DNA from: Candidatus Gottesmanbacteria bacterium RIFCSPHIGHO2_02_FULL_40_13
Lineage (GTDB): Bacteria; Patescibacteriota; Microgenomatia; 2-02-FULL-39-11
Direction of reading: 5' to 3'
Assembly (NCBI GenBank): GCA_001779235.1
Contig: MFJN01000022.1
Span: forward strand, 8,186-43,023
DNA length: 34,838 nt
Positions 16,054-34,838 of the stretch are shown piece after piece. The position numbers and the translations under genes are program-made. The notes beneath the pieces were generated by a model. That model had not been told where the DNA came from. It was given only the letters and a program-made list of their open reading frames with translations, and did not search any database. The stretch's first letter is position 1; every line of letters starts with the position of its first letter.

Positions 16054-16440
16054 TTACTCCTTCTTCCCCACAATATCTTCTATCCTGATTTTTTCTTTAA
16101 CTTTTTCCTGTTTTTCGTCGGCTTTTTTCACTACTTCCTCTACTTTCTCTACTTCCTCTACTTTTTCGATTTTTTTATGAACAGATTTTAGAGCGGGTTT
16201 TACTTTAATTTTTTCTTCTTCCTTTTTATAGGCAATCACTTTGTAGGGCCCAATTTTGAGGTCTTTATGCAAAGTCTTGATGCATTTGGAGCAAAATTTG
16301 ACGGTTTTTTTTTGCCCCTGATATAAAACTTTTAATTTTTGGAGGTTAGGAAGAAACAATCTTCTGGTCCTGTTTTTGGCATGGGAGACGTTGCTTCCGA
16401 TAATCCTCGCCTTGCCGCAATAATCGCAAATGTATGACAT
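16054..16440 (-). CDS. rpmB: Large-subunit ribosomal protein bL28 with a charged C-terminal extension
   Basis: The first about 70 residues are bL28: [20 protein letters not shown] at the start, then [11 protein letters not shown] and [11 protein letters not shown]. The paired C5-x2-C8 and C50-x2-C53 form a zinc site (the C+ type). The remaining about 55 residues are a Lys/Glu/Val-rich extension with repeats of KVEEVEK, giving 128 aa against the usual 60-80. The extension is probably surface-exposed and extended or coiled coil; its role is unknown. Confidence 0.92.
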
Positions 16441-16493: not shown

Positions 16494-17147
16494 ATGTTTT
16501 CGCTGCTTTCCCAAAATCCGGTTTCTTTTGTGATTATTGCTGTTTTGTTGATAGCAGCAATTTCTGTGCATGAATTTTCCCATGCCTTTTCGGCTGATCA
16601 TCTGGGGGATCCTACACCCCGGCTTGCCGGACGCCTCACTCTTGATCCGAGAGCACACCTTGATCCTATGGGCACACTGCTTCTCTTTTTTGTCGGCTTT
16701 GGCTGGGGCAAGCCAGTCCCCTTTGATCCATTTAATCTCAAGGATCCCAAAAGGGACTCTGCCCTTATTTCTTTTGCCGGACCCCTTTCCAACCTTCTCA
16801 TGGCAATTCTAGCAAGTGTCATCATCCGACTTACTAACTTTCTGCCTCTGCTTCTTGCGTCTTCCATCGCGACTCAAGTCTTAAGTCTTTTTGTCTATTT
16901 CAATGTCTTGCTGGCAATCTTCAATCTCCTCCCCGTCCACCCGCTTGACGGCTTCAAAGTGGTAGCTGGGCTTCTGCCTAAAAAATATTACTCCGACTGG
17001 CTGGCTCTGGAGCCTTACGGCATGTTTTTTCTGATTATGCTTATTTTCCCCTTTTTTGGAAGGTCTGCTGTATCCCAAATCATTTCTCCTGTGATTAGTT
17101 TCATACTTTCGATTTTACTGCCGGGAAGTCTTGGAGGAATGATATAA
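16494..17147 (+). CDS. Site-2 protease family membrane metalloprotease (M50)
   Basis: 217 aa, five or six membrane segments. The zinc motif HEFSH (26-30, HExxH) lies in the first segment, and NLLPVHPLDG (144-153) supplies the third ligand Asp152. The compact form without PDZ domain is like the YwhC/SpoIVFB-type minimal S2P group. Substrate unknown; these enzymes cut membrane-spanning segments, often of anti-sigma factors. Not evidently co-transcribed with anything: a repeat-filled gap of 173 bp separates it from the ATPase gene. Confidence 0.92.
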   Translation: MFSLLSQNPVSFVIIAVLLIAAISVHEFSHAFSADHLGDPTPRLAGRLTLDPRAHLDPMGTLLLFFVGFGWGKPVPFDPFNLKDPKRDSALISFAGPLSNLLMAILASVIIRLTNFLPLLLASSIATQVLSLFVYFNVLLAIFNLLPVHPLDGFKVVAGLLPKKYYSDWLALEPYGMFFLIMLIFPFFGRSAVSQIISPVISFILSILLPGSLGGMI

Positions 17148-17320: not shown

Positions 17321-19993
17321 ATGTACCATCTAATTTCAGAAATTGAAGTTATCAGGCAATTTAAATCAGATCCTCATAAAGGACTTTCGACAGGTGAGGC
17401 TGAAAAAAGGCTTGCCGCATCAGGACCGAATTCATTACCGGTCGTCTCACCTGTTCCACTCTGGAAAAAATTTATCTCTCAATTTCAAAATCTTCTGGTC
17501 ATCATCCTTCTTGTCGCCACTCTGGTTTCCTTTCTATTGGGTGAAACTGTCGATGCCATAGCGATTGCAGCCATAGTTATCATCAATGCAGTCATCGGAT
17601 TTGTACAGGAGGTAAAAGCTGAAAAGACCCTTGACTCTTTAAAAAGTAAGGAGATTCACTACGCATTGGTTGTGCGAAACAGTGAAACTGCAGAAATTGA
17701 AGTGAAAAATATCGTCACGGGCGACATAGTCATCCTGGAGGAAGGCAGTAAAATCCCCGCGGATTGCCGTATTATCGAGTCATACTCTCTGCGGGTAGAT
17801 GAAAGCATACTGACCGGAGAATCTTTAGCTGCCGAGAAAAACCACCAGACACTTGATTCAAAGTCTTCAACTTTGGCCGACCGGACAAACATGCTATATA
17901 AAGATACTAAAGTTATGGCCGGCCGGGGCAAAGCCATCGTCGTTGCCACGGGCAAAAATACAGAGATTGGCAAAATCGCGGTATTCTTGGAAGAAAAAGA
18001 AACTGATAAAACGCCTCTGACGATAGAACTTGAAAAGGTCGGCAGGGTGCTTTCTTTGGTCGTAGGGGGAATTGCCGGTTTGATTTTTTCCATAAATATG
18101 CTGGCACGCGTTCCCCTCATCGACAGCCTGCTGGTTTCCATCTCTCTCGCTGTTGCCGCGATCCCTGAAGGCCTTCCCGCAATTGTTACGATTGTCCTGT
18201 CCCTTGGCGTCAAAAGACTGGCGGATAAAAAAACCATCGTCAAAAAACTTTTAGCGGTCGAAACATTAGGCGCAATCAGAATAATTGCCACCGATAAAAC
18301 CGGTACCATCACCCAAAATAAAATTAATGTAGTGCGTCTTCTGCTTCCGGATGAAAAACAGTTTACGGTGACAGGACAGGGATACCGGACTAGGGGGGAA
18401 TTCTATGATACAGCCAAAAAAATCATTAATCCCCTATCTCTGCCGAAACTCGAAACGCTCCTGACTATCGGTGTTTTAGCCAATAATTCCTCCCTGAAAA
18501 TTTCTGATGATGAGGAAACACAGGTTCTGGGTGACACCACCGAAGGATCGCTTCTTGTCACCGCCAAAAGAGCCGGGCTGAATCTTGAGAATATAAAAGA
18601 AGCCAGTCCCCGGCTTTATGAAGTACCGTTTTCCGCCGAACGGAAAATGATGAGTGTCATTGTCGATGTAGATCAAACGTCTGACCACATGCTTTATGCC
18701 AAAGGAGCCCCTGAGGTAATACTGAACCTTTGTAAAATAGCTCCGGATATCAGGAAAAAAATTCTTTTGCAAACCGAATCGATGGCTAAACAAGGTTTAA
18801 GAAGTCTGGCCTTTGCCGGCAGAAAAATTACTAAAACAGAAGTAGGACGGGCTCTTGAAAAAAATGAGGTTGACGAATCAGGCATGGAGTTTATGGGGCT
18901 TATGGGCATGCAGGATCCGCTCCGTCCTGAAGTTAAAGAAGCTTTAATCAAAGCGCGTTTTGCAGGTATCCGCACAATCATGGTCACCGGCGACCACAAA
19001 GATACAGCACGTTGTATAGCTCTTGAGGCAGGTATTATGGTTGAAAGTGATAAAGTTCTGACCGATGATGCGGTTGATAAAATGACTTTGCGTGAGTTGA
19101 CCCGTGAGATTAAAAACGGCACTTCGGTTTTTGCACGCATCTCTCCTATGGGCAAACTCAAAATCATCAAAGCGGTAAAAGCCATGCCTTTCACTCAGGT
19201 AGCTGTAACCGGAGACGGAGTGAATGATGCTCCGGCTTTGAAAGAGGGACACATTGGCGTCGCCATGGGTAAAACTGGCACCGACCTCACCCGTGAGGTG
19301 GCTGATATTGTCATTACGGATGACAATTATGCCACCATCATTGACGCAATCCGTGAAGGAAGGGTAATTTTTGCCAACCTTGTGAAATTTATCCGTTATC
19401 TAATCTCCTGCAATCTTTCTGAGGTTTTTGTTGTAGCGCTGGGTGTAATTTTTAGCACACCTTTTCCTCTAATTCCTATTCAACTTCTTTGGATCAATTT
19501 GATTACAGACGGCCTGCCTGCTCTGGCACTTGGCCTTGATCCGGCAGAGCTGGATATTATGAAAAGACCACCCCGTGATTTGACTACGGGAATACTTCAT
19601 AAAAAAAGATGGATTTATATGACGCTTGAGGGAGCCGTTATGGGGCTGTCTGTCTTTTTGCTGTTTATAATTATGCTGGGGCGTTCAAATTATGTTGTCG
19701 CCCAAACCATGGCTTTTACGGCGCTTAGTTTGTCGCAACTTGTTCATTCTTTAAATAACCGCAGCACGAGGACTTCTCTTTTTAAAATCGGGATATTCTC
19801 CAATCATTTTCTGATAGGTGCAATAATTATTTCAGCTTGCCTGCAATTTCTGGCCGTCACCACCCTCTTTGGCAACCGGATCTTCAAAACTACCGCCCTG
19901 AGCTGGCAGTTGTGGGGAATCATTATCGGTATTTCTTTACTGCCGCTTCTGGTCTCGGAAACCAAAAAACTCCTCCTCCACCGCCACCTTTAA
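17321..19993 (+). CDS. Calcium-type P-type ATPase (P2A)
   Basis: 890 aa, the full length for the family. Cation-ATPase N-terminal domain, actuator loop TGES (165-168), phosphorylation motif DKTGT (D325), nucleotide-binding domain with KGAPE, hinge TGDGVND (630-636), and ten membrane helices. The ion-site motif PEGL (282-285) in M4 and NLITDGLPALALG in M6 match SERCA/PMR1-like Ca2+ pumps rather than Na/K or heavy-metal pumps. It exports Ca2+ (or Mn2+). The last codons and the stop fall in the 29-bp palindromic repeat. It is convergent with the HD/TGS gene that ends at 20020. Confidence 0.93.
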   Translation: MYHLISEIEVIRQFKSDPHKGLSTGEAEKRLAASGPNSLPVVSPVPLWKKFISQFQNLLVIILLVATLVSFLLGETVDAIAIAAIVIINAVIGFVQEVKAEKTLDSLKSKEIHYALVVRNSETAEIEVKNIVTGDIVILEEGSKIPADCRIIESYSLRVDESILTGESLAAEKNHQTLDSKSSTLADRTNMLYKDTKVMAGRGKAIVVATGKNTEIGKIAVFLEEKETDKTPLTIELEKVGRVLSLVVGGIAGLIFSINMLARVPLIDSLLVSISLAVAAIPEGLPAIVTIVLSLGVKRLADKKTIVKKLLAVETLGAIRIIATDKTGTITQNKINVVRLLLPDEKQFTVTGQGYRTRGEFYDTAKKIINPLSLPKLETLLTIGVLANNSSLKISDDEETQVLGDTTEGSLLVTAKRAGLNLENIKEASPRLYEVPFSAERKMMSVIVDVDQTSDHMLYAKGAPEVILNLCKIAPDIRKKILLQTESMAKQGLRSLAFAGRKITKTEVGRALEKNEVDESGMEFMGLMGMQDPLRPEVKEALIKARFAGIRTIMVTGDHKDTARCIALEAGIMVESDKVLTDDAVDKMTLRELTREIKNGTSVFARISPMGKLKIIKAVKAMPFTQVAVTGDGVNDAPALKEGHIGVAMGKTGTDLTREVADIVITDDNYATIIDAIREGRVIFANLVKFIRYLISCNLSEVFVVALGVIFSTPFPLIPIQLLWINLITDGLPALALGLDPAELDIMKRPPRDLTTGILHKKRWIYMTLEGAVMGLSVFLLFIIMLGRSNYVVAQTMAFTALSLSQLVHSLNNRSTRTSLFKIGIFSNHFLIGAIIISACLQFLAVTTLFGNRIFKTTALSWQLWGIIIGISLLPLLVSETKKLLLHRHL

Positions 19994-20019: not shown

Positions 20020-22596
20020 TCAGCGTCTTTGGGGACCATGCCTGCTACCCTTATTCCGTCTTTTACGCTCTAGACGTTCAAATTTTCTACGCTGCTTTGC
20101 TATTTCTGCGGCTTTACGTGCTTCTTGTTTCATATCTGTCTCTTTTTCTCCATTACCTGATGAACCTCCAGCTGTCTTCCTTACACTTGATCTCCATTGT
20201 TTTATCAACCGGGAAAGATTAACAGATATTACTTCCCCTGGTACTAATAATCTATCTATCTCCTTATCTGTCAGATTCTGATCAAGAGTAAATCTTATAA
20301 ATACAGCTAGAGAAACTTTATGTTTTATATCGAAAAAATATCTGACCGGACCCCGTTCAAATTCATCTTCGGTTCTCTTAAACGGCAGATCTAAAGATAA
20401 ACACAGCTCTTTAAATCTTTTACGGTCCTCCTGATTGATTGTCCGGTAGGCAACATCCATGGCAACTGTATTTTTAGTATATTTATCGATCTCATCCGCT
20501 ATTACATCAAGGTCCACCTCGCGGACTTCGCCATATGCCACAGCCTGTAAAAAGTCAGAGATTCCGGCAAAATCCAACCCTTTTTGGACGTAATCCCGGA
20601 CAAAGTCCAAACTTACTGTTCTTGTATAAAGTAGTCTGTCATTAAACTTCATGGCCCCGATTTCCTCAATCTCTCCTTTCCATTGGGCATAAATTGGACT
20701 CTGGCGGAATTTGAGAACTTCCAGTTTCGCTTTCATTTGTTGGGTGATAACTGCCAGAAGTTTAGGATCCGAGGTGGCTTGAAGCCATATAGGAGTCACA
20801 ACCGAGTCGCTTTCGTCATCAATCGTGAACTTAATCCTGTCATTGTCTGTTAACGGCCTGTTTATTTGGTCTGCCGTGTACGAAAATCCATTTACGATGA
20901 AAGAATCAAGGTGTACCATATTCCCGCCTCTAATCCTGTATGCGTAATCTGCTACCGTCGCCCCAGCCGGTAAAGTCGTATATTCACCCGGTTTGATGCC
21001 GTAAACTCTAATCCCTCCCATATCTGTCACTAATGCATGTAAAATTTCTTCACTTCGTACAGTATCCGAAACATCGCCAATTCCGCCTATAGATTGCCTA
21101 TAAAATACGTTAATAAGATCATGATAATCTGCAGAAAGTCTCTGAAGTTTCCTTTTGGCCGGATCGAAATATTGACTTGTTTCCGCATCTGATAATCCGG
21201 CTTTGTAAAGGTACGCTAACCGGGCATTTTCTGTTTCATCAGCTGATTTACTCACTATTTTCACTTTTATTCTTTTCTTCAGTTGCGGATGGGTAAAAAT
21301 CACCTCTCTTGAACCAATTCCAACTGCTTTGGAATTAGGATTATATTCATCGCTAGTGACCCAACCTGATATTTGTAATTTATTTTTAATCTTTCTTTCA
21401 TACCATGTTAAATTATGCCCCTGGCCCAACCCGGCTACGGGGATAAAAACTTTGGCATAAAGATCATCAGAAGTAAACCTGCCTTTTTCCATCCTTCGTA
21501 ACCATGTTTGATATAACCCGTAAATACCCGGAAGTGTAATCTGGATAGAATCAGGAGTAAGATGTAAATTACCGTTCGCAAGGGCCCTCTCCAATTCCTG
21601 CCGTAAAGTATCTTTTTGCAATACTTTCTCTAAGGCATTTGTAATAACCTCATACCGCTCAAGATTTCCCTCGCTCAGATCCCCTGCAGAATCGGCAGCT
21701 TTCATCAATACGTCCGCGAAATAATTGAACCTTCTGGGATCTATCTCCTGAAACGCCAGATCTGACAGCTCGTTTCTGATGTCATCCTCGCCCGTAAGTT
21801 TGGCTAAATTTGAGGAAATTTCGAGTGTCGCCACCGCTTTCATCTGTCTTTTTCTGGGGCTTTGTTTCCCGGCAATTTCACGCATGTTGTCCAATCTGTC
21901 TGCCAGTTTGAGCAAGATAATTCTGGGGTCTGTATCTTCTCCGGTTTGAAATTGCCTGTAGATTTTCAGAAATGTTTGCCTGTCGTATTCTCTCTTTTCC
22001 AGATCTCTAATCTCTGCCTCAGTCATTCCAGCACGGTATCCGCGAAGTGTAGTCGGGTCAATTTGCAAATCCCACTCTGAATTCCTGCATCCAAGGACTA
22101 ACTTTTTGACAGTCGAACCAAACCTTTGTCCGATAAAGTCTGCGGATACCGGATGGCGGTATTTGGCCGAATCTTCCAGTACGTCATGAAGCAGCGCGGA
22201 GATAACCGTATCCGCATCAAGCTTCATTTGGGCGATAATATTTGCCACCCGAAGGCAATGATTGGAATATCTGTCTTTTGATTCTCTTTTTTGTTCCTGA
22301 TGGGCATAATGCATCAGAGAAAGAGCATCATTGACACGCATAAAATCCCCGGGGGTCAAATAATCCAAACTGTCTAAGAGATTTTCCTGGTTTAATTTTT
22401 CCCTGTCATCAAAATCAATATTTTTTTGTATTCCGTCATCGGTCAATGGGCTTTGAAAAAACACAGGAGAGTATACTTCGCCACTCTCGGGTATCAATTC
22501 GGGCACATTCCCCCCTGCGGGTCTGACCGCACCCATCAGACGGCTGTAAAGCATCGGGTCGGTTGCAAGTTGTGGCGTTAACTCAATTTTGGCCAT
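20020..22596 (-). CDS. RelA/SpoT-like protein A: HD hydrolase, degenerate synthetase, TGS
   Basis: 858 aa. The HD domain (about 85-260) has all metal ligands: H113 in YSNHCLRVANI, H137-D138 in LLHDVLED, and the downstream LLKLADRLDNMREI. In long RSH enzymes this domain hydrolyses (p)ppGpp. The region that should be the synthetase (about 340-520) retains IYGLYQTW, like the family's IYSIYxK, but I cannot find the substrate-binding or EIQIRT-type motifs, so synthesis is probably lost. A TGS domain follows (about 528-595; TLPAGATVADYAYRI and a later VNG). The C-terminal about 260 residues include a second region resembling the post-TGS helical part and a basic tail. It is 64 bp downstream of its paralogue with which it forms a probable operon. 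No SD is seen. Confidence 0.75.
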   Translation of the reverse strand: MAKIELTPQLATDPMLYSRLMGAVRPAGGNVPELIPESGEVYSPVFFQSPLTDDGIQKNIDFDDREKLNQENLLDSLDYLTPGDFMRVNDALSLMHYAHQEQKRESKDRYSNHCLRVANIIAQMKLDADTVISALLHDVLEDSAKYRHPVSADFIGQRFGSTVKKLVLGCRNSEWDLQIDPTTLRGYRAGMTEAEIRDLEKREYDRQTFLKIYRQFQTGEDTDPRIILLKLADRLDNMREIAGKQSPRKRQMKAVATLEISSNLAKLTGEDDIRNELSDLAFQEIDPRRFNYFADVLMKAADSAGDLSEGNLERYEVITNALEKVLQKDTLRQELERALANGNLHLTPDSIQITLPGIYGLYQTWLRRMEKGRFTSDDLYAKVFIPVAGLGQGHNLTWYERKIKNKLQISGWVTSDEYNPNSKAVGIGSREVIFTHPQLKKRIKVKIVSKSADETENARLAYLYKAGLSDAETSQYFDPAKRKLQRLSADYHDLINVFYRQSIGGIGDVSDTVRSEEILHALVTDMGGIRVYGIKPGEYTTLPAGATVADYAYRIRGGNMVHLDSFIVNGFSYTADQINRPLTDNDRIKFTIDDESDSVVTPIWLQATSDPKLLAVITQQMKAKLEVLKFRQSPIYAQWKGEIEEIGAMKFNDRLLYTRTVSLDFVRDYVQKGLDFAGISDFLQAVAYGEVREVDLDVIADEIDKYTKNTVAMDVAYRTINQEDRKRFKELCLSLDLPFKRTEDEFERGPVRYFFDIKHKVSLAVFIRFTLDQNLTDKEIDRLLVPGEVISVNLSRLIKQWRSSVRKTAGGSSGNGEKETDMKQEARKAAEIAKQRRKFERLERKRRNKGSRHGPQRR

Positions 22597-22608
22597 AAAA
22601 AAATAATC

Positions 22609-22623
22609 GAGACATACCGTCTC
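22609..22623 (-). other. Hairpin with T-run between the two HD/TGS genes
   Basis: On the minus strand GAGAC-GGTAT-GTCTC is followed by GATTATTTTTTT and then the ATG of the downstream gene. An overlapping alternative stem, ACCG-AAGAGA-CGGT, excludes it. This could attenuate read-through from the upstream gene. The stem is short, so evidence is modest. Confidence 0.35.
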
Positions 22624-22660
22624 TTCGGTCTAATCCTGAAATTGCTGAATATTACCACTT

Positions 22661-25087
22661 TTAGGGACTATATTCAAAAATCACCTTCTTCTTTCGAAAA
22701 ATACCCGTCAGATTGTTTTCATGAGGTCTAAAATTAAAAGTTGTAGAAACCAGCTTCTTTGAAAACTTTTCCATTAATTCTTGATGAATATTTTTTACCA
22801 AAACTCTTACCGCTACATAATCAACCTCCGCAGTAAACCCTTTAACCTGAGAAATGTCGAAAGCTATATGTATTATCGGGGAATCACCGGGGGTCACTCC
22901 AGCCATTCCTTCCGAATAACGAATGTCGATGTTATATTTTTCAGACAACAGATCCGTAATTGTACTCTCGATTCCCTGTTCATTATTTGTAAATTTAAAG
23001 TCAAGACTCACTACGTTTTCCAGCTGATAGGTTAACAACTTTTCTGCATACTGACTAACTTTCTCAGCATCCAGTTCGTCTAAGGCTATTTGAAACAATA
23101 ACTCATCCGGATCGACCACATCGAATACCTGCCTCAGATCAACTATTGGTTTCTGATCCATTAAAGACTCCAGTATTCTTTTAGCCTCGAAAATCAGACT
23201 TTCACGGGTCTTTTTCTGAGTTTCTGACTTTTTCGGGCCGGCAAGAATATCCCGGAAATGCCTCCGTATCTGCTCTTTAAATTCATCTCCGCTTGTTTTG
23301 AGACAGCGTATCCAGTAAGGTTGTATGGATGGACCTGATTCAAATACTAGACTAACCGTATCACCAACAGATAATACATAATCCGGCCCTACAGCATTAT
23401 CGTTTACTATAAAGAAAAGCGATCCCTGCCACAGCGGTACATTCTCTTCTTCGGTCTGATATGGAAACCGGTCGCACGCCAGGTCCAAAACAGTTGATCC
23501 TGCCTCGATCCACCAGGGTATTTTCTTATCACCATCTAAAAAATACAGCTCGAGCTTCCCCGGTAAGATAAAATCCAAAAATTTTCTGCCTAAATCTCCG
23601 CCGGCCAAACCTGTAACCTGTGTCACACGTTTTCTGATCATCTCCCACTTTTGTTGGCCTAATTTGTGCCGGGTATTGAGTTCATTATCAGGTGAATGTA
23701 TCTCTTCAGGCAGAATAGCCTTCAGCTGTTTATAATATAAATGAGTTATAGGAATTTGCATGAGTTTGCCTCTTCCCGGAGGATAGATATTTATTTTTAA
23801 TATAAGGGAGGGAGAGGTCTCTTCTTCAGGAAGAGCTTGCAGATGGAATTCCATTGATTGCAGTGTTTTTTCAGCCATTTTTCTCTTAACCTCTGGCAAA
23901 TCTAAACTTCCTATAGAGTCAAATTGACCCGAAAGAGCAAGTGTTATTCTATGCTGCCAGGCTTTTTTTACCCAAGCGTATTTTTCAAAGTTCTTCTGAT
24001 CCATCTTCGCTCCTTTCATCTCTATATCAACGCTTAAAAAGCAGTCCTCCGCGGATAAATCCTCCTTTTTATGAACCCTTTGATAAAGTGTATAAATATC
24101 CGGAATGATAATTTGTATTTTGTCTTCAGGGAGATTAAGTATCTCTGCAAGTTGTTTGCGTATACGATCTTCGATCTCCATTTCTTTAATTTCACGCGTA
24201 AAGGTATCAAGGATACTCTCTAATTTTTGGCTGTACACAGGATCAATAACTTTTAAGCTAAGCGTAGCAAGCGCCCTAGCCTCCTCAAAAAGCCCCAGGA
24301 AGCGTGCCAGCGGTACATAATATCGTAATGTTTCCGTAGCTTTTTCTTTTTGTTTTGCAGGCAGCATCTGACCAATAGTCTTCATATTATGTAAACGGTC
24401 ATAAATTTTAATGAGAGAAGCACGGGGATTTTTTTCCAAAGACTCAAACAAGACAGCCCGCGTCACATCATCAACCTCTTCCGGCCTGTCTCCTTTCCCG
24501 AATCTTACTTTAGACAATGATTCGACGGTCCGGGCGACATCCTTTGATAACATTTTTGAAAGATAATACCTGGTTACCGGATATCCGTTGACTGTGGAAT
24601 CCTCCAGAAGATCATGACACAAGGCTGCGGATATCGTTTCCCAATCGCACTGTAAATCTTTTCCTGCAAGAGGCAAGGCGACGTGTAACAGATGATTGGC
24701 GTATGGCGTTTGTCCATCCGCCCTTGTTTGTCCCCAATGTCCATAATGCATGAGGGCCATGGCAATATCTATCTTCTCAAGCTCCTTATAAGTCATGTAC
24801 TTACTGCATGAGTCATATAAACTACTCATCAGATCTTTGGTTTCTTTATCTTTCTCGGGAATCTCGGAAAATTTTACTTCTACAGGACTATAATTTCCCG
24901 GCCGGCTTAAATCAAATCCATAACTTAAAGCTGTGTCAAAATGTATGGTTTGCAACAAATCCGCGCTTTGAGGCTGTAAATTCTGGCTAAAACCCCTAAT
25001 TCCGACCAGATTGTTGTAAAGCTCTGCACTCCAGTTTTGCTGAGGTACATTGCGTGTCAGGTCGTGTAAATATTCGCGAAACGCCAT
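22661..25087 (-). CDS. RelA/SpoT-like protein B: HD hydrolase, degenerate synthetase, TGS
   Basis: 808 aa, paralogous in layout to the downstream protein. The HD domain (about 105-280) is intact: MHYGHWGQTRADGQTPYANHL, H158-D159 in LCHDLLEDS, and IKIYDRLHNMKTIG. The synthetase-like region keeps KIQIIIPDIYTLYQRVHKK but lacks recognisable catalytic motifs. A TGS-like domain lies about 510-590 (WWIEAGSTVLDLACDRFP then FIVNDNAVGPDYVLSVGDTV). The C-terminal 200 residues are unassigned. First gene of the minus-strand unit; a good promoter (TTGACC, 17 bp, TAAAAT) lies 36 nt upstream, divergent from the PRTase-Nudix gene. Hydrolysis of ppGpp or another nucleotide is the likely activity (inference from the HD domain). 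Confidence 0.75.
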   Translation of the reverse strand: MAFREYLHDLTRNVPQQNWSAELYNNLVGIRGFSQNLQPQSADLLQTIHFDTALSYGFDLSRPGNYSPVEVKFSEIPEKDKETKDLMSSLYDSCSKYMTYKELEKIDIAMALMHYGHWGQTRADGQTPYANHLLHVALPLAGKDLQCDWETISAALCHDLLEDSTVNGYPVTRYYLSKMLSKDVARTVESLSKVRFGKGDRPEEVDDVTRAVLFESLEKNPRASLIKIYDRLHNMKTIGQMLPAKQKEKATETLRYYVPLARFLGLFEEARALATLSLKVIDPVYSQKLESILDTFTREIKEMEIEDRIRKQLAEILNLPEDKIQIIIPDIYTLYQRVHKKEDLSAEDCFLSVDIEMKGAKMDQKNFEKYAWVKKAWQHRITLALSGQFDSIGSLDLPEVKRKMAEKTLQSMEFHLQALPEEETSPSLILKINIYPPGRGKLMQIPITHLYYKQLKAILPEEIHSPDNELNTRHKLGQQKWEMIRKRVTQVTGLAGGDLGRKFLDFILPGKLELYFLDGDKKIPWWIEAGSTVLDLACDRFPYQTEEENVPLWQGSLFFIVNDNAVGPDYVLSVGDTVSLVFESGPSIQPYWIRCLKTSGDEFKEQIRRHFRDILAGPKKSETQKKTRESLIFEAKRILESLMDQKPIVDLRQVFDVVDPDELLFQIALDELDAEKVSQYAEKLLTYQLENVVSLDFKFTNNEQGIESTITDLLSEKYNIDIRYSEGMAGVTPGDSPIIHIAFDISQVKGFTAEVDYVAVRVLVKNIHQELMEKFSKKLVSTTFNFRPHENNLTGIFRKKKVIFEYSP

Positions 25088-25122
25088 AATAGTGATGTTG
25101 ATATAAGAATACCAACCCAGCG

Positions 25123-25164
25123 ATTTTACTATGTTGTATGTGTGAGGTCAAACTATAGGTCAAA
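25123..25164. promoter_or_regulatory. Minus-strand promoter and AGGTCAAA direct repeats (divergent control region)
   Basis: For the HD/TGS gene at 25087: TTGACC (complement 25146-25151), 17 bp, TAAAAT (complement 25123-25128). The -35 lies within the first of two exact AGGTCAAA repeats (25145-25152 and 25157-25164), 12 bp apart. The second ends 7 bp before the -35 of the divergent gene. One regulator could therefore govern both directions. Confidence 0.6.
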
Positions 25165-25171
25165 ATCCCGC

Positions 25172-25200
25172 TTGACAGATTTACTCTGGTATCATAACAT
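25172..25200 (+). promoter_or_regulatory. Promoter of the PRTase-Nudix gene
   Basis: Perfect -35 TTGACA (25172-25177), 17-bp spacer, -10 TAACAT (25195-25200). +1 would be near 25207, leaving a leader of about 250 nt, far longer than the leaders elsewhere in the window. Confidence 0.6.
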
Positions 25201-25206
25201 TATAGG

Positions 25207-25458
25207 TCTGGTATGAGTAATAATTTTAACTATTTCGAAATGAAGCTCCACGGGTTTACACCCGTGGTATCTTCAAAGACTGCGGAGCAAAATCCGCCGA
25301 AGCAGAAGAGCATTCATCCCTGCCTTTACAAACAGGGTCTTCTGCGAAGGTGGATATATCACCTCCCTATTAATCGATCTTTTAACCTGCCGACCGGGAG
25401 GTAAGGTTATTTTATAAATTAACAAGCAGTTTTTACCTCCCCAAAGGGAGGTTTTATT
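25207..25458 (+). promoter_or_regulatory. Structured leader with two competing anti-SD/SD pairs (switch candidate)
   Basis: Elements in order: hairpin A (TGAAG 25241-25245 with CTTCA 25271-25275 enclosing CCACGGGT 25248-25255 with ACCCGTGG 25260-25267); hairpin B (GCAGAAGA 25302-25309 with TCTTCTGC 25338-25345 enclosing CCCTG 25318-25322 with CAGGG 25333-25337); ACCTCCC-1 (25361-25367); GGGAGGT-1 (25396-25402); ACCTCCC-2 (25435-25441); loop CAAA; GGGAGGT-2 (25446-25452). GGGAGGT-2 is the SD, 7 nt before the ATG at 25459. Pair 1-1 plus 2-2 hides the SD; pairing GGGAGGT-1 with ACCTCCC-2 frees it. This is the geometry of a translational riboswitch or similar sensor. No known aptamer class was recognised. 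Confidence 0.6.
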
Positions 25459-27921
25459 ATGCCAATAGCAGAAGAATTAAGAAGAACCAATTTTATTCAC
25501 TTTGCAGGACCAGGAATTTCAGGAAGAATATTTCCTGAAACTGATCCAGTTCACGCTTATTTTCTGGAACCAAATCCTGAGGTAAAAAATATCGCTCATA
25601 CATGGGTAAGGACTGTAAAGCTTATTTGTGGAGTCAAACGCCTTAATGAAGTATCAGCTATCTTCGGAGATACAGCCCGTACAAAAGGAATATCTCCTGA
25701 AGAAAGAGAGCAAAAGAAGAAAGAAATCGGCGACCGTTGTATAGAGGCCTTTGCCCAAAGACACCGCATTACTATTTCTGATATGGCAACTTCAAACAAC
25801 GATTATGGAATTACTTTATCTAATACCCGTAAAAATCAATTTGGGGAACCAGAGATAGACACGATGACTAAATTTGAGGTCGCAGAACTGATGACAGATT
25901 CAATCAGGTATGGACGTACTGTAAGAGATTATTTACAAAACCCTCACAGCGGAGTTCTTCGGGGTCTGTCAAATGTTTTACCGGCAGTTGTCAATGAACC
26001 TTTGGGTATTACCAAATTTGAGGATTTACTCCTTTTAATGTTTTCCCCTAAATGGGGTGAGCAAACCCGATTTGAGGCCCGTCAGATCTTAGGACTGTCT
26101 GATCTGGCTGCAGAAGTGCTTTTATATAAACGAAAATATGAAGGTTTGAAAGATAAAATATCTGACATCCTGGATCATCATGGAGTTTTTAACCCATCCG
26201 AACACGGGCCGTTAAAAGATCCGTATAATTTCTTGACTCTCCATAACCCTGAAACTTTTTATGTTGAAGGAGTAAAACCTCTTCAGCCGGGTGAAAAATA
26301 TGAACCACAACCTAATTTACTGTTTAACAGTTTGAGGGTAAGAACAGCAGTAGATGAGCATGGAGAGTATCTACTCCAACTGAATGACGAACCCAAAGGA
26401 ATCGTCCAGACAATGCTGAAAATGATTCGCCGCAATACCCTTGATCCTGCCGAAATTCGAGATAATTATCGTATGGCAGCCACTTTTGTCAACCGCGCGG
26501 ATATAGAAAGATTTTTGACAGGGATCAAAGAGGCAAGCAAAAAAGCAGGTAAACCGATCGTTATTGACGAACTGGAGTTTGAAAATACTCTTGAGGGAGA
26601 TAAATATGAGGCGGTAACGAACGGTAAAAGCGAGATATATGCCGGATCAAGCAAAAAGTATCAGGTAATGCGCCGTAAACTTTATTTTGCCGACAGGCCT
26701 GATCTGTTCTGGGAATTATCTTGCTATACCTTAGAGGCCTTCGTCAACTATAACGTGGCGGATAATACGGGAATTCTTGAATATCTGGTAAGAAGACTTA
26801 TTGAGCATAACCCTGAAAACGTGGATGCCGGAGTTTTTGAGTATCTGGTACCTCAGGATATCTATGGAATAGATGCTGCCGAATACTTAAGATCGCTTGT
26901 GCATGGAATAAGAACTTCCGTCAGGGAAAAAGCGTTCGTGCATAATGAACATATGACCAGACGTCTCAGACTGATGTCAGAAGGTGAAATCGCACAGGCT
27001 GTTAACCAGATTTCTGAACAAATTCAACCACACTCTTCAACTATTATTCCCGATTATCAGAAATGGCCGGATATAATTATAGCAATAGGAAAAAACACTA
27101 TGACAGCCTCCCAAGCTCTGGCTCGTCGCTTTAAGGCAGAGATGCTATTTTACCCTGGAAATGGCCACACTATCGCTGATTTTCTTCAGAAGAATGCTCA
27201 AGCCTTAGCCGGAAGAAGAGTTTTATTTCTGGATGATGTCGGTATTAATGCCAATACAGTTCGAACGATGTCAACTTATCTTCAAGAGATCGGCAATCCT
27301 CCCTCTAATATCGCCTTCTTAGCTCTGGAACAAGATTCGACCGCTTCCGCAATGAATCCTTATTATGGTTCTTTATTTACCAAAGGTGAATACATCTTTT
27401 TTCCTTCTCAACTTCATGAATACATAGAACATACTCAAAGCGTCTTTGGAATATGCTACAGATATCGAGAAGGACAACTCGAAGTGTTGCTGCAGGAAGA
27501 AGATAAAGAAGGTGTTATCAAAATCAAATTGCCCGGAGGCACGTGGAAAGGAGGTCCCCTTCAAGACACTACCCTGGGCGATGAATCGACCTTAGAAACA
27601 TTGCGCCGGGAAACTGATGAGGAATTAGGCTCTACTATGAGACGGAGACTATCGGAACGTCTGGACCAACGTTTCCCTGTCTCCCAAAATATTCTTCTGG
27701 ATCCGGATGGTCCTGATGTTACGTCAAATACACTTCACCTTCTAGCCTATTTTATCAATGGACACGACCTTGAGATAGATGATTGGCAAGCTCCGGAAAA
27801 TAGTAACGTGGAGTCATTAAAATGGGTAGCCGTTGATGAAGCAATTGATAAAGTCTTTAGAAAAGGATACAGAAATCTGCTTAGAACTGCAAAAGAGATA
27901 CTATCACCATCTACTTCTTAA
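25459..27921 (+). CDS. Large protein with C-terminal phosphoribosyltransferase-like and Nudix domains
   Basis: 820 aa. The PRTase-like domain is about 537-640: PDIIIAIGKNTMTASQALA, then the PRPP-loop-like VLFLDDVGINANTV (D592, D593), in which the usual TG is replaced by NA. The Nudix domain is about 661-815, with box residues E-x7-RETDEELG (717-724); the leading Gly of the box is not at its usual place. The N-terminal 530 residues match no family I know. One part (about 320-450; EIRDNYRMAATFVNRADIERFL, later SSKKYQVMRRKL and WELSCYTLEAFV) faintly recalls the RelA/SpoT nucleotidyltransferase fold, but I do not assert it. Strong SD GGGAGG 7 nt before the ATG fixes the start. It is divergent from two HD/TGS genes. 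A nucleotide hydrolase with a PRPP- or nucleotide-sensing domain is the best guess. Confidence 0.7.
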   Translation: MPIAEELRRTNFIHFAGPGISGRIFPETDPVHAYFLEPNPEVKNIAHTWVRTVKLICGVKRLNEVSAIFGDTARTKGISPEEREQKKKEIGDRCIEAFAQRHRITISDMATSNNDYGITLSNTRKNQFGEPEIDTMTKFEVAELMTDSIRYGRTVRDYLQNPHSGVLRGLSNVLPAVVNEPLGITKFEDLLLLMFSPKWGEQTRFEARQILGLSDLAAEVLLYKRKYEGLKDKISDILDHHGVFNPSEHGPLKDPYNFLTLHNPETFYVEGVKPLQPGEKYEPQPNLLFNSLRVRTAVDEHGEYLLQLNDEPKGIVQTMLKMIRRNTLDPAEIRDNYRMAATFVNRADIERFLTGIKEASKKAGKPIVIDELEFENTLEGDKYEAVTNGKSEIYAGSSKKYQVMRRKLYFADRPDLFWELSCYTLEAFVNYNVADNTGILEYLVRRLIEHNPENVDAGVFEYLVPQDIYGIDAAEYLRSLVHGIRTSVREKAFVHNEHMTRRLRLMSEGEIAQAVNQISEQIQPHSSTIIPDYQKWPDIIIAIGKNTMTASQALARRFKAEMLFYPGNGHTIADFLQKNAQALAGRRVLFLDDVGINANTVRTMSTYLQEIGNPPSNIAFLALEQDSTASAMNPYYGSLFTKGEYIFFPSQLHEYIEHTQSVFGICYRYREGQLEVLLQEEDKEGVIKIKLPGGTWKGGPLQDTTLGDESTLETLRRETDEELGSTMRRRLSERLDQRFPVSQNILLDPDGPDVTSNTLHLLAYFINGHDLEIDDWQAPENSNVESLKWVAVDEAIDKVFRKGYRNLLRTAKEILSPSTS

Positions 27922-28406: not shown

Positions 28407-29087
28407 TTAAAACTCGAAGTGCGATTTGATATTTTCAGCGTTTTCAATTCTTTCTGCCACGATATAAGTCACGTTTATCCCCACCTGATAAATCTGGCGC
28501 AGGAATTCCACTTCATCAAAACAAGGAAATGGATGTACCCAGACGCTTTTTTGCAGAGGATAAAAATCCATAAGTTTCAGGTGCATACGAAATATATCCC
28601 GCATGTTTTTGTGTTTTTCGGGAATATCAAATATTACTATCCGCCATTTTTTATCCCAGGATTTTGGCTTTGCAATCTCCATTTCTGTAAGTTTATACCT
28701 CAAAGCCCGTACTCTACCTGCTTGTGTAATTCTGACTAAAGTTTGTCCATTTTCTTCAACTATTTTAACTAGTTTTTGTTTTTTTAGACGATCGATTGTT
28801 TGGCTAAAATAATTTTTGTTAAATTTCTTGCCGTAGGTAATAAATGGCGCCACCGCCATCGGTAAAGTAGGAATTGCAAACGACAAACCAATAACTGCGC
28901 CGCTTGCCAGTATTTTTAATAGCTCCTTGGTTTTTGGATTTAACAATTTTTTTTGTCTTAGTTGCCGGCTGAAAAATTCTTTATCGCGGGAGAATATCTT
29001 TTCAGTTTTTACCAGATCAACTTTCGAAAAATCTAATTTTATCTTATATTTACTGCTTTTTATCCTTTTATTCTTTCGATTCTTCAT
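28407..29087 (-). CDS. PaaX-like / Cas2-fold protein with a winged-helix segment and hydrophobic helix
   Basis: 226 aa. The C-terminal part (about 143-226) starts WDKKWRIVIFDIPEKHKNMRDIFRMHLK and continues with LQKSVWVHPFPC, the pattern of the Cas2-like ferredoxin domain in PaaX repressors (PaaX_M). Before it, KLVKIVEENGQTLVRITQAGRVRAL (about 107-131) fits a winged-helix beta hairpin. A hydrophobic stretch (about 57-82, LLKILASGAVIGLSFAIPTLP) could be a membrane anchor, and the N-terminus is very basic. No phenylacetate genes and no CRISPR array or cas1 occur nearby. The gene is bracketed by two copies of a 34-bp palindrome-ended repeat, one of which overlaps its promoter. A repressor or nuclease acting on that repeat is plausible (inference). 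Confidence 0.8.
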   Translation of the reverse strand: MKNRKNKRIKSSKYKIKLDFSKVDLVKTEKIFSRDKEFFSRQLRQKKLLNPKTKELLKILASGAVIGLSFAIPTLPMAVAPFITYGKKFNKNYFSQTIDRLKKQKLVKIVEENGQTLVRITQAGRVRALRYKLTEMEIAKPKSWDKKWRIVIFDIPEKHKNMRDIFRMHLKLMDFYPLQKSVWVHPFPCFDEVEFLRQIYQVGINVTYIVAERIENAENIKSHFEF

Positions 29088-29278: not shown

Positions 29279-29968
29279 CTACTTGCACTTGACCGCATCG
29301 AGACTGTTAATCTGTCCATTGGCATCAATATCATACTTTTTTACACTTGCCCATTCTGACGCTGGCAACTTGTCGTTCTTACCTATATTGGCGGAAATTC
29401 CCGCACACAGATTTGAAGTTCCTGACGGCGAGACGCTGATTTTGGGCGCGGCTGATACCGTGGTAAAACGGGTCGGTGAAACGACTGCAGCAGTTGGCGA
29501 AAGGAAGGGGGTCGGAGTATCTATCGGCTTTACTATCTCAGTCTGCGGAACTATCGCTGTAGTCGTAAAACTCCACGGGACGCAACTTGCTCCGCATATT
29601 TGGCCTGATGCGTCGCACTTTTTATCCCCTATTTTAATGAGGTAATAATAAACAGTGTTGGGAGTGAGAAGTGACAAATTGACATTATGCGCTTTCCCGG
29701 GTTGTCCTTCGGGGGTAGAAAAAGTCAGATTGGTGGCCGTAATCCCGTATTCCACCATCCCCTGCGACATCTCATCCGTCACCCAGGAAATCATGGCATT
29801 GTTCGTTGTCACCTGATTGGCCCCGACTTCTTTTATCGAGCAGGACGAAGCTCTGGCAAAAAAAATGTTTGCCTGCCTGCCGAGAAAAATAGTAGTTCCC
29901 AAAGCTACCAGAAGAAATACAGTAATTCCTGCGGTTTTTATTTTTTTTTGAAAAGATGCCAGATTCAT
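29279..29968 (-). CDS. Surface protein: fibronectin-III-like domain and C-terminal dockerin-like repeat
   Basis: 229 aa. An N-terminal membrane anchor or signal (about 12-35), then an FN3-like domain of the type seen at the N-terminus of purple acid phosphatases (NNAMISWVTDEMSQGMVEYG, LTPNTVYYYLIKIGD), a Pro/Thr/Ser linker (about 145-185), and a terminal KYDIDANGQINSLDAVKCK. The last matches one half of a type-I dockerin (D-x-D-x-N-G-x-I-N-x-x-D), so only a single Ca2+-binding repeat is present. Last gene of the minus-strand cohesin/dockerin cluster. Its SD appears to be supplied by a heptamer array just upstream. Confidence 0.72.
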   Translation of the reverse strand: MNLASFQKKIKTAGITVFLLVALGTTIFLGRQANIFFARASSCSIKEVGANQVTTNNAMISWVTDEMSQGMVEYGITATNLTFSTPEGQPGKAHNVNLSLLTPNTVYYYLIKIGDKKCDASGQICGASCVPWSFTTTAIVPQTEIVKPIDTPTPFLSPTAAVVSPTRFTTVSAAPKISVSPSGTSNLCAGISANIGKNDKLPASEWASVKKYDIDANGQINSLDAVKCK

Positions 29969-29977
29969 ATTTTAAAA

Positions 29978-30030
29978 CCTATTGCCTATTGCCTATTGCC
30001 TATTGCCTATTGCCTATTGCCTATTGCCTA
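29978..30030. repeat. Heptamer array (CCTATTG)7.6 between surface-protein genes
   Basis: Seven exact CCTATTG units at 29978-30026 plus CCTA. Read on the minus strand the unit is CAATAGG; the last AATAGG lies 9 nt before the ATG of the FN3/dockerin gene and resembles an SD. Copy-number change would not alter the nearest SD but could alter mRNA folding. Confidence 0.95.
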
Positions 30031-30046
30031 ATACATTCTACCTCCC

Positions 30047-30841
30047 TCATACAATAAACAAAATACCCACGATAGTCAAGATCAGGCCGAGGCCTACTGC
30101 CGCCAGAGTGACTTTAGTCGACCCGACGTTGGGCAAAATACTGACTGTCGGAACAAGCGTATTAGTGGGAACCGGCGTACTGGTGGGTTTTTTGGTCGGA
30201 GTTGCCGAAGGAGTGGAGGTCGGAGCGGGTGTCAATGTAGCCGAAGGAGTGGAGGTCGGAGTCGTACCGCAGGCAGTGTCTGTACCGGTAATGGTGAAAG
30301 TCAAAGGCTTGTTGTCAGCACATTTTATGATATCGCTAAAATCCAGCGAGCGGTTGATGTTGGAATCAGCTCCGGTTGTTCCCACACAGTCAAAAGACAG
30401 AGTTGTATTTCCGGTAGATAAAGGCGTCATATCAAGAGTTGCCATGAGAGTATCAGTCGTCGAACTTTTTTCATGGGCTATACTCTCCTCCCAACTGCTG
30501 ATAAGAGCTTTATCGTTTGCTCCACCCAAGGGATTTGCGGAAAAATAAGTGTAGAAATCGCCTTTCACTGATTTATCAATATTGATTTTCACTTTGGTAG
30601 GATCGTATTTGATCAGGGCATCAGCCGAGACAGTTTTTTCGCCCGTGGTATTGATAAGGATTTTAGTCTGGAAGCTCTGACCGCAGGCGACCGTCGCACC
30701 GCCGTCTGAAAGCTGGAGTGTAAAATACTGAGCCAGAGCTTCAGATCTGGCAACAGTGAAAATAAATACCAGTGATAAAACTGCGCCGGTGAATATATTG
30801 CGCGTCCGTCTTTTGCATAAATTTATCCGGCATATCAGCAT
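30047..30841 (-). CDS. Cohesin-domain surface protein with C-terminal membrane anchor
   Basis: 264 aa. Signal peptide (about 15-38, ending near SEALA-QYF), then a cohesin-like beta sandwich (about 40-180; ALIKYDPTKVKINID and the later SLDFSDIIKC), a Pro/Thr/Ser linker with TPTSTPSAT-type repeats (about 190-232), and a C-terminal LPNVG followed by a hydrophobic stretch ending FIV. The end resembles a sortase signal (LPxTG) but lacks Thr at the fourth position and the basic tail, so a simple membrane anchor is as likely. It starts 1 bp after the upstream cohesin gene's stop. Confidence 0.78.
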   Translation of the reverse strand: MLICRINLCKRRTRNIFTGAVLSLVFIFTVARSEALAQYFTLQLSDGGATVACGQSFQTKILINTTGEKTVSADALIKYDPTKVKINIDKSVKGDFYTYFSANPLGGANDKALISSWEESIAHEKSSTTDTLMATLDMTPLSTGNTTLSFDCVGTTGADSNINRSLDFSDIIKCADNKPLTFTITGTDTACGTTPTSTPSATLTPAPTSTPSATPTKKPTSTPVPTNTLVPTVSILPNVGSTKVTLAAVGLGLILTIVGILFIV

Positions 30842-30842
30842 A

Positions 30843-31442
30843 TTAATTTCCGGAAATACTCACTGTCGCACCCGCCACCGTCCCGAGCAGGTTCCGGCTG
30901 GTTTTACTTTCAACCACTGTTGATAAGTTTGTCTTACCCTTCTCAAAATCAAAATCAAATTTGGCGCTGCCTTTCAAAAGAGCTTTTGCCTGAAGTGTGA
31001 AAAAAATAAAGTTATCGCCGGTCAGGTTGGCGTCTTTTGGCGAAAATCCTGTCACTTTCACGACTCCGATTACCTTATCTATTGTGATACGGGGATAATT
31101 GGTAAAAAACTCACCCGGCATGATGTCCGTCACTTCCACAAGGCGCGGGTCGTATCTGATGATCGTATCCGCGCCATCCAGTTTTTTATCGGGGGCCGTC
31201 ACCACCACAGCCAGACTGAAAATCTCGCCTGTTTTTTTCAAAAGATGAACAGGCTGGATAAATTGACCGGCGACCAGTTCAAACTGTACCTTACTGATTT
31301 CAGGCATGACTCCGGGATTTTTTACCATATTGGCAGTCAGCATCAACTGGCGCTCGCGGCGTATGAGAAAAATGCCCCCTATGAGAATTGCCAATATTAT
31401 TATCACCAGTATTATTTTTCTGTTCTCTGTATGATTTATCAT
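30843..31442 (-). CDS. Membrane-anchored cohesin-domain protein
   Basis: 199 aa. One N-terminal transmembrane helix (about 10-27) followed by a single cohesin-like domain (about 55-195): FSLAVVVTAPDKKLDGADTI, IRYDPRLVEVTDI, FFTNYPRITIDKVIG, then VTGFSPKDANLTGDNFIFFTLQAKAL. The substitution of a signal peptide by a long helix suggests it stays in the membrane and displays the cohesin outside, as a receptor for dockerin proteins encoded next to it. Tightly linked to the downstream cohesin gene. Confidence 0.78.
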   Translation of the reverse strand: MINHTENRKIILVIIILAILIGGIFLIRRERQLMLTANMVKNPGVMPEISKVQFELVAGQFIQPVHLLKKTGEIFSLAVVVTAPDKKLDGADTIIRYDPRLVEVTDIMPGEFFTNYPRITIDKVIGVVKVTGFSPKDANLTGDNFIFFTLQAKALLKGSAKFDFDFEKGKTNLSTVVESKTSRNLLGTVAGATVSISGN

Positions 31443-31459
31443 ATTTTAATAATTAAAAA

Positions 31460-33631: not shown

Positions 33632-33647
33632 AAATTTTTATTTTTTG

Positions 33648-33742
33648 TTATCTGTTATCTGTCCCGATGATGTTCCCGATTTAATCGGGATTACAGCATC
33701 GTGGATCCCGCTGAGGCGGGATTCTCTGTTCTCTGTTCCCTG
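33648..33742. repeat. Mixed repeat tract: heptamers and two palindromes
   Basis: GTTATCT x2 (33648-33661), the TCCCGATT-T-AATCGGGA palindrome within 33674-33692, ATCCCGC-TGAG-GCGGGAT (33705-33722), then TTCTCTG, TTCTCTG and TTCCCTG (33722-33742). It fills the 162-bp space between two surface-protein genes; no promoter stood out. Confidence 0.85.
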
Positions 33743-33793
33743 CCTATTTCCAGCATAGCAATAAATTTTCCTGTTGGCAATAATATATTTCTT

Positions 33794-34838
33794 TCATATG
33801 GATGCCTCTCCTCTCCTGCACATCTCAAAATCAACCAGGTCTACTTTGCCATCGTTATTAAAATCAGCATCTCCATTGCCTGTTCCGGCAAATACCGCTT
33901 TCCATATATCAAAACAGGTCGGGATAGTCGTGGGTGAGGGCGTCAGTGTCGCTGTAGGCACAGCTGTGATGGAAGGAGTGGGGGTTACTGAAGGAGTAGG
34001 AGTTTCAGTCGGATCCAGCTCTATAAAATCAGTAGGAATCGGAGTCGGGGTGATTAAATTTATCGTAAGATTATGTGCCGGCCTGTCGGTGAGGATGTTT
34101 TGCGTATTCAGATCATAGACAATACTATCCTGAAGAGCTGTAAACGTCAGTGAAGAAACATCAGTAATTTCTTTCACCTTAAATAGTATTGTTGCCAGTT
34201 CCCTGTCACCTGTCGCGCCTGTGCCCGGTGCATCAGTGATCAGCCCGACGCGGACCAGTTTGTTTTGGCTGTCTATCATATTAAGAGTATTCTCAGTGTC
34301 AAAGCCGGAATCAGGGGAAACAACGATATTATTTGCCGCCAGTTCAGAATCATCTGCTCCTGCAACCTGAAACTCCAGAGCAGAGCCGTCATAGTTCAGT
34401 TTAAAGTCCAGTGAGCTGACTGCTCTCCCGTTAGTATCAAGGCGAAGCTTCAGAGAGAGGTCTTCTCCCTTGGCATACGAAGTTTGTGCGGAAGAAAAAT
34501 AAAGCCTGGCTCCATTTACCATCCCGATTGCAAACTGTCCGTCGGTTGTGCTGTATGGCTTTCCTTCCACTTCTGTTGCAGGATCCCATAAGAAAGTGGC
34601 CTGTCCTGTTTGGTCTGGCTTTACCTTCAGCAGTACCTCGATAAGGTCTATTGGTTCAGATCCTCCAAATCCCACATTGGTTTTAGCACCTGTAACAATA
34701 ACTTTTGAACCTGCGATATTGGTTTCAAGACCGAGCAGAGAAGAATACTTTTTGGTAAAGTTAGCGGGTATATTATTGAGATCTTGAAACTCCACGCTTG
34801 CGGGAAGAGTGAAGCGGAATTCAAAGGCATTAAATGAG
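33794..34838 (-). CDS. Scaffoldin-like protein: cohesin domains, Pro/Thr linker and dockerin repeat (5' end off the window)
   Basis: The reading frame is open through the right edge: fourteen more sense codons precede the GTG at 34795, so this is a fragment without its real start. 347 residues visible. First a cohesin-like part (NVGFGGSEPIDLIEVLLKVK), then a second, clearer cohesin (RLYFSSAQTSYAKGEDLSL, SLDFKLNYDGSALEFQV, ELATILFKVKEI), a Thr/Pro linker (PTETPTPSVTPTPS), and a terminal DADFNNDGKVDLVDFEMCRRG, one dockerin half. Carrying both cohesin and dockerin elements, it can act as adaptor between the anchored cohesins and the dockerin proteins of the cluster. Confidence 0.75.
   Translation of the reverse strand, partial: SFNAFEFRFTLPASVEFQDLNNIPANFTKKYSSLLGLETNIAGSKVIVTGAKTNVGFGGSEPIDLIEVLLKVKPDQTGQATFLWDPATEVEGKPYSTTDGQFAIGMVNGARLYFSSAQTSYAKGEDLSLKLRLDTNGRAVSSLDFKLNYDGSALEFQVAGADDSELAANNIVVSPDSGFDTENTLNMIDSQNKLVRVGLITDAPGTGATGDRELATILFKVKEITDVSSLTFTALQDSIVYDLNTQNILTDRPAHNLTINLITPTPIPTDFIELDPTETPTPSVTPTPSITAVPTATLTPSPTTIPTCFDIWKAVFAGTGNGDADFNNDGKVDLVDFEMCRRGEASI

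Follow-up and report, generated by a model that had tools for sequence, protein, structure and literature searches.

The locus and its hydrolase genes

The locus examined here lies in a stretch of 34,838 nucleotides (hereafter, the window) from the genome of Candidatus Gottesmanbacteria bacterium RIFCSPHIGHO2_02_FULL_40_13, the 1.29 Mb assembly of which has a completeness of 86%. The three open reading frames reported in an earlier note on this DNA, of 858, 808 and 820 amino acids (P0001, P0002 and P0003, respectively), are all present (Table 1), and the observation made there holds up, but the leader RNA in the intergenic region shared by the divergent genes had been missed. The gene immediately downstream of P0003, encoded on the other strand, specifies a protein with a PaaX central Cas2-like domain (28407-29087). 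Beyond it, cohesin, dockerin and purple-acid-phosphatase-N-like genes are clustered (29279-34795), and similar genes adjoin the locus in relatives. Elsewhere in the host genome, a group I intron match (L124, 186-467, minus strand; 58 bits) exceeds the Rfam gathering score. A phage or plasmid origin of the locus was rejected: P0003 has no phage match, and the plasmid matches of P0002 are confined to the general RSH region.

Table 1. Features of the window, with positions counted from its first nucleotide
Feature	Position	Strand	Basis
Ribosomal protein L28 (rpmB), syntenic neighbour	16054..16440	-	Pfam 2.2e-18; synteny
M50 protease, syntenic neighbour	16494..17147	+	Pfam 3.2e-12; synteny
Ca-ATPase-like P-type ATPase, syntenic neighbour	17321..19993	+	Named from sequence; same neighbour in L011, L049-L051, L055, L056
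P0001, RSH paralogue	20020..22596	-	Pfam HD_4, TIGR00691, residue alignment
P0002, RSH paralogue	22661..25087	-	Pfam HD_4, TIGR00691, alignments
P0002 promoter-like site TTGACC-17-TAAAAT	25123..25151	-	10/12 consensus
P0003 promoter-like site TTGACA-17-TAACAT, 12 nt before leader ORF	25172..25200	+	Similar site in 9/9 leaders
Leader ORF, 63 codons, MSNNFNYF...WIYHLPINRSFNLPTGR, stop at end of segment 1'	25213..25404	+	ORF list
Attenuator segment 1 (ACCTCCC), inside leader ORF	25361..25367	+	By inspection
Attenuator segment 1' (GGGAGGT), complementary to segments 1 and 2 (antiterminator)	25396..25402	+	Complementarity, fold
Terminator hairpin 2:2', ACCTCCC-CAAA-GGGAGGT-TTT	25435..25455	+	Predicted -12.0 kcal/mol
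P0003, 820 aa	25459..27921	+	ORF call
Divergent RelA/SpoT synthetase-type domain, P0003 residues 286-478 (K313, K321, R324, D335, Y401, E419)	26314..26892	+	Profiles, fold search
PRTase-like domain, P0003 residues ~508-655, degenerate PRPP loop LDDVGINANTV	26980..27423	+	Foldseek 1vdm 1.3e-4
Nudix domain, P0003 residues 662-808, box E709-x7-R717-E718-x2-E721-E722-x-G724	27442..27882	+	Pfam, Foldseek

The HD hydrolase domains of the two paralogues are intact (residues 91-266 of P0001 and 111-266 of P0002, with Pfam HD_4 matches at 5.6e-22 and 7e-16, respectively), and the spoT_relA model TIGR00691 covers the first ~340 residues (2.4e-37 for P0001, 1.4e-34 for P0002). When the two proteins are aligned to canonical RSHs from their own class, neither lacks any of the hydrolase residues (H, HD, ED and DRLxN), and this alignment, together with the HD_4 matches, places the HD motifs at H137-D138 of P0001 and H158-D159 of P0002, as the earlier note had it. 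The claimed loss of synthetase motifs is equally apparent in the same alignment: R-x-K, NGYxSLH and E-x-Q-I-R-T are gone, and the position of the synthetase Glu is occupied by Lys in P0001 and P0002 alike. Neither protein classes as a long bifunctional RSH, since its chain does not retain the synthetase motifs intact. The TGS domains attributed to both fared unevenly: P0001 yields a weak, sub-threshold match (residues 529-587, Pfam 2.3e-3), and P0002 has no Pfam TGS match, although a TGS remnant is suggested there by an alignment. Judging from their motifs, P0001 and P0002 would hydrolyse alarmones, and their synthetase regions would be inactive. The two fall into different branches, P0002 with the proteins of G004, G005 and G008, and P0001 with that of G013; tandem hydrolase genes are found also in G014 and perhaps in G003, on two contigs. 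Elsewhere in the class, L059-L062 encode canonical-type RSHs with HH in place of HD, changed ED residues and intact synthetase motifs, a loss opposite to that in P0001 and P0002, and ILV-, Leu- or aromatic-rich leaders occur near these genes.

In the host family, the hydrolase gene is flanked by the genes for the P-type ATPase, the M50 protease and L28, with a divergent gene, hereafter the slot gene, on the other side. The gene-neighbourhood comparison proposed in the earlier note shows that this divergent pair is conserved across Ca. Gottesmanbacteria genera (G000, G003, G004, G005, G007, G008, G009 and G014), with considerable variety in the slot. The slot gene is P0003-like in G000, G004 and G005; in G003, its product has ~519 aa and the next gene encodes a P0003-like protein, and in G007, the product is a ~504 aa relative of that ~519 aa protein. 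The slot proteins of G008, G014 and G009 are deeply divergent (870-915 aa), with the synthetase-type domain described below detected at the motif level only (hmmsearch gave 0.06 and 0.27 for two of the three, and hhalign a P of 7.7e-4). In G002, a P0003 homologue and a hydrolase gene are neighbours but convergent, with a methyltransferase gene between them. A methyltransferase-like gene lies directly 3' of the P0003 homologue in both G005 (L011, 7116-8207) and G002 (L012, 6851-7930), that of G005 matching PADLOC mads_2 at 1.7e-8.

A synthetase-type domain in P0003

P0003 is poorly visible to routine searches. The Pfam scan found nothing above the cut-off N-terminal of the Nudix domain and no direct RelA_SpoT match; a PDB sequence search gave no match, and neither did the related-locus search with P0003 alone. 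A four-sequence alignment of the P0003 family retrieved three named Gottesmanbacteria loci and none in viral contigs, and Candidatus Gottesmanbacteria is the named source of the relatives that hold the closest P0003 homologues. Full-length relatives, with 31-47% identity, are encoded in G005, G002 and G004; elsewhere in the class, there are shorter proteins (~440-500 aa) related to the middle part of P0003.

It is this middle part that shows the connection to alarmone synthetases. The P0003 profile retrieves a protein of G158 at 2.7e-26, and this protein has a Pfam RelA_SpoT match (7.7e-6) that fell short of the cut-off by 0.4 bits in one scan and exceeded it in another; the G002 orthologue of P0003 gives a weak direct RelA_SpoT match (0.036). 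When 380 genomes of the phylum were scanned with a profile of the domain, known RSH and SAS proteins were recovered, and 12 of the 19 non-self loci fetched contain PF04607 matches. Homology of P0003 to RelA_SpoT is accordingly reached by profile, through an intermediate (L081) and by reverse retrieval. In hhalign comparison with ten canonical RSHs, K313, K321, D335, Y401 and E419 line up with the motif residues as expected (seven sequences, P = 0.058; 13 domains, P = 0.0012); K, R and D are invariant in 13/13 domains, and K and E are present in at least 90%. P0003 itself keeps the Asp, Glu, Tyr and Lys synthetase positions and departs from the motifs in two, with Glu for the R of R-x-K and Arg for the His of NGYxSLH, so that catalysis may be altered or lost.

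Evidence at the level of the fold points the same way more weakly. AlphaFold confidence is low for P0003 (pLDDT 57-60), and the full-length model, in which the synthetase region is poorly modelled, has no RSH proteins among the matches listed; the domain was therefore modelled alone (pLDDT 60). The best PDB matches of this domain-only model in Foldseek are Rel, RelA and SAS1, each weak, with E values of 0.03 or worse. The suspicion that the N-terminal 530 residues of the third protein conceal a synthetase is thus supported at the family level and more weakly at the fold level, for residues ~286-478. Given the observed homology and the weakly matched fold, P0003 may be a separate synthetase, namely, a divergent RSH-type nucleotidyltransferase with predicted activity. 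The TGS/ACT region was not detected in P0003, and therefore, activation on the ribosome in the manner of RelA is probably impossible for this protein.

P0003 bears out the nucleotide-handling folds foreseen for it, as seen in structure searches with both the full and the domain models. The Nudix domain is above the cut-off in Pfam (3.5e-6) and matches 1ktg in Foldseek (8.4e-6), although the first Glu of the Nudix box is not kept in two orthologues. The PRTase claim survives for the fold, through the Foldseek match to 1vdm and a weak NCBIfam HPRT match (0.013), but not for the PRPP-binding loop, which is degenerate across the P0003 orthologues. Both parts are absent from many relatives. Nudix hydrolases can degrade ppGpp (PMC3153485).

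The phyletic distribution adds context. PF04607 is found in 80 of 280 genomes of the class vs 2 of 15 in the host family, there as ~357 aa proteins; it was not found in the other 13 host-family genomes, nor in the host genome assembly, which is 86% complete. HD_4 is present in 11 of the 15. No HD_4 hydrolase was detected in G160, G212, G205 and G198, each of which encodes a short relative of the P0003 domain; the P0003-type domain can therefore exist without this hydrolase. Relatives of the P0003 domain that are orphans in Pfam (437-500 aa) are encoded in L014 (9419-10741), L015 (9304-10614), L016 (10070-11557) and L079 (1357-2856), in genomes with no HD_4 hydrolase detected; those of L015 and L016 adjoin aspS/recJ-like genes, and a similar terminator precedes the start of the L015 gene.

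The leader of P0003 and its relatives

The intergenic region contains, upstream of P0003, a promoter-like site, a leader open reading frame and a set of complementary segments, and the 3' arm of the terminator 2:2' contains the ribosome-binding site of P0003, GGGAGG. The alternative pairing 1':2 in the window has a predicted energy of -14.6 kcal/mol; in the stretch around 1:1', the free fold favours pairs other than the 25361-25367/25396-25402 complement. The pattern ACCTCCC-loop-GGGAGGT-TTTT-ATG lies directly before slot genes and occurs at 3 sites in the host genome, with 0 for the reversed-pattern control. There is no Rfam match in the window at curated thresholds. An inverted repeat (25248-25267) lies inside the long leader frame of the window, possibly as an in-frame insertion; a second copy was not found in the pieces of the host's own genome that were searched.

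The same anatomy recurs in relatives. A sigma-70-like promoter stands 7-12 nt before the leader ATG in 9/9 slot-gene leaders examined, and the stop codon of the leader frame falls just at the upstream GGAGG. The peptides are MRYHFTWLCLHFLFPIESGPGGLG (G008), MRYTNNFVCLHIWLPIASGSGGLG (G007), MLSRIHSICLLIVRNWHFAYMGGQW (G014), MKYRIMITCHHSLRVLIVDDKGGCR (G002), MSNKLYHSILPVFILIRGSQGGCS (G004), and, in G003, MHSRYYQTTLNFVILFWDKGGGCG and MNKQLHQIIFPVIILFWRSQGGCG, the second of which precedes a gene truncated where the contig stops; in G009, the peptide MKKLFTRIISTHLILILS, read by eye, accompanies a changed stem, CCTTCCCC/GGGGAAGG. These frames have 18-25 codons vs 63 in the window, with the same kind of end. 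A leader frame with its stop in a fixed interval was found in 7/7 relatives scanned, whereas shuffling a given leader yields such a frame in 2.6-5.6% of cases, in a test that ranged over 18-40 codons and thus leaves the 63-codon frame outside, and with per-leader probabilities that are not to be multiplied, some of the genomes being close relatives. In 8/8 leaders folded, three competing hairpins have comparable predicted energies (1:1', -16 to -28 kcal/mol; 1':2, -12 to -19; 2:2', -12 to -16). The leader frame ends at the alternative hairpins, and the predicted antiterminator and terminator, the latter with a T-run, are mutually exclusive, as in an attenuator. There is almost no covariation because the stem sequences barely vary, and the consensus fold is uninformative for the same reason and because segment 2 is wrongly aligned in part of the rows. 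The P0003 orthologue of G005 has no such leader; a similar hairpin precedes a 124-aa frame beyond its hydrolase gene.

The whole arrangement was found at 17 sites in the 15 host-family genomes, with 0 for the reversed-pattern control; 8 of the sites precede slot genes, and none precedes a hydrolase gene. The genes at the nine other sites, named by inspection of their sequences, are two for aspartokinase (leaders ...MVTTTGSP and ...IVTTTTTSTKEVS), two for DAHP synthase (...WYYFYF... and MNLTSTKFFYFYFTS), three for cysteine synthase (...CCCTS), one LmbE-like (...NCCCASF) and one phosphatase-like. Genes for Cys, Thr and Phe/Tyr biosynthesis in the host family are thus preceded by matching CCC, TTTTT or FFYFYF leader peptides, and therefore, these bacteria apparently use the attenuator system to sense amino acids. 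Amino-acid biosynthesis genes in L125, L126, L130, L133-L136, L139 and L141 are preceded by trp-type attenuators whose peptides are rich in Cys, Thr or Phe/Tyr; such attenuators are apparently undescribed for Gottesmanbacteria in the literature searched. The slot-gene peptides have a composition of their own, with His in 8/8 (4.1-fold enriched), Cys enriched 6.7-fold and Trp 3.5-fold, also rich in Ile and Leu and poor in Glu, Asp and Ala, with no run of a single residue. This mixed composition would fit a sensor of several amino acids.

Proposed alarmone control at the locus

Four known systems come closest to the locus. It shares HD_4 hydrolase and RelA_SpoT-type synthetase domains, and the TGS trace of P0001, with the long RSHs (Rel, RelA, SpoT), but here, hydrolase and synthetase reside in separate divergent genes, the hydrolase paralogues have a decayed synthetase region, and the synthetase domain of P0003 lies below Pfam detection and is fused to PRTase-like and Nudix domains. 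As in the small alarmone synthetases (RelP, RelQ, SAS1) and toxSAS, the short relatives of P0003 keep a motif of the R-x-K-S-x-E-S type, and the structure search matches SAS1, whereas P0003 has 820 residues and is chromosomal, syntenic and equipped with an attenuator. The Thermus Nudix ppGpp pyrophosphatase has the Nudix domain in common with P0003, where it is fused to a synthetase-like domain. With the trp-, phe- and thr-type attenuators, the leader shares a peptide, three mutually exclusive hairpins and a terminator before the gene; it differs in preceding an alarmone synthetase-like gene, in its mixed-residue peptide, and in having the ribosome-binding site in the terminator arm.

In our assessment, the locus is fairly probably a split stringent-response module in which the synthetase is induced by general amino-acid starvation via ribosome-mediated attenuation, P0003 being the putative catalyst. 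The pairing of synthetase and hydrolase, along with the fast evolution of the slot proteins, would also suit a toxSAS-like toxin and antidote, in which the toxicity would come from the P0003 domain, through synthesis of a harmful alarmone or pyrophosphorylation of tRNA, and would be counteracted by the HD proteins, in a defence or toxin-antitoxin module; toxSAS modules use such a domain (PMC11782079), and the PRTase-like part of P0003 has a weak PADLOC match to ShosT (0.011). We regard this as unlikely in the light of the fixed syntenic place by rpmB and the ATPase gene in many genera, which are not mobile surroundings, the lack of a phage match for P0003, and an attenuator of the type common to amino-acid biosynthesis genes.

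A similarly low probability attaches to P0003 and the paralogues being non-catalytic regulators, that is, nucleotide-binding remnants that sense alarmones made elsewhere. The R to E and H to R changes in the synthetase motifs and the degenerate PRPP loop speak for such decay, but the Asp and Glu positions are kept even in very diverged members, the HD motifs are complete, and no other synthetase was found in the 86% complete host genome. As for the signal, mixed leader peptides with no run of one residue are also what would be expected if the leader responds to translational stalling of any kind, for instance, under ribosome-binding antibiotics, rather than to amino-acid shortage, and antibiotic-sensing leaders of this type have been described (PMC9226507, PMC4191407). 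The same architecture in the host family, however, takes the form of amino-acid attenuators with cognate codons, and His and Cys are enriched in the slot-gene peptides, so we consider this explanation improbable as well.

Under the split module that we favour, the anatomy of the attenuator is as observed, and its switching would follow the trp-type model. When the tRNAs for His, Cys, Trp, Ile, Leu and similar residues are charged, the ribosome would read through the leader frame and cover segments 1 and 1', whereupon 2:2' would form, ending transcription and hiding the ribosome-binding site. A shortage of any of these amino acids would stall the ribosome over segment 1, leaving 1' to pair with 2, and the P0003 synthetase would be made. 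The alarm would then be cleared by the hydrolase; more speculatively, the Nudix domain may act on the product by trimming it, and the PRTase-like domain may be a nucleotide-binding sensor. We see about an even chance that Ca. Gottesmanbacteria sense starvation in this manner, by a mixed-residue leader peptide and not by RelA on the ribosome, with stalling turning on a stand-alone synthetase and separate hydrolases opposing it.

The literature searched, largely without subscription papers, describes no alarmone synthetase gene under ribosome-mediated attenuation; the link between attenuation and (p)ppGpp in prior work is limited to the response of amino-acid operons in a strain devoid of (p)ppGpp (PMC6892785). 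If the proposed scheme is true, an RNA attenuator can take over from an allosteric, ribosome-bound enzyme in connecting amino-acid shortage to the alarmone. The scheme would also explain the missing synthetase in most genomes of the host family, where standard profiles would miss an enzyme of this kind.
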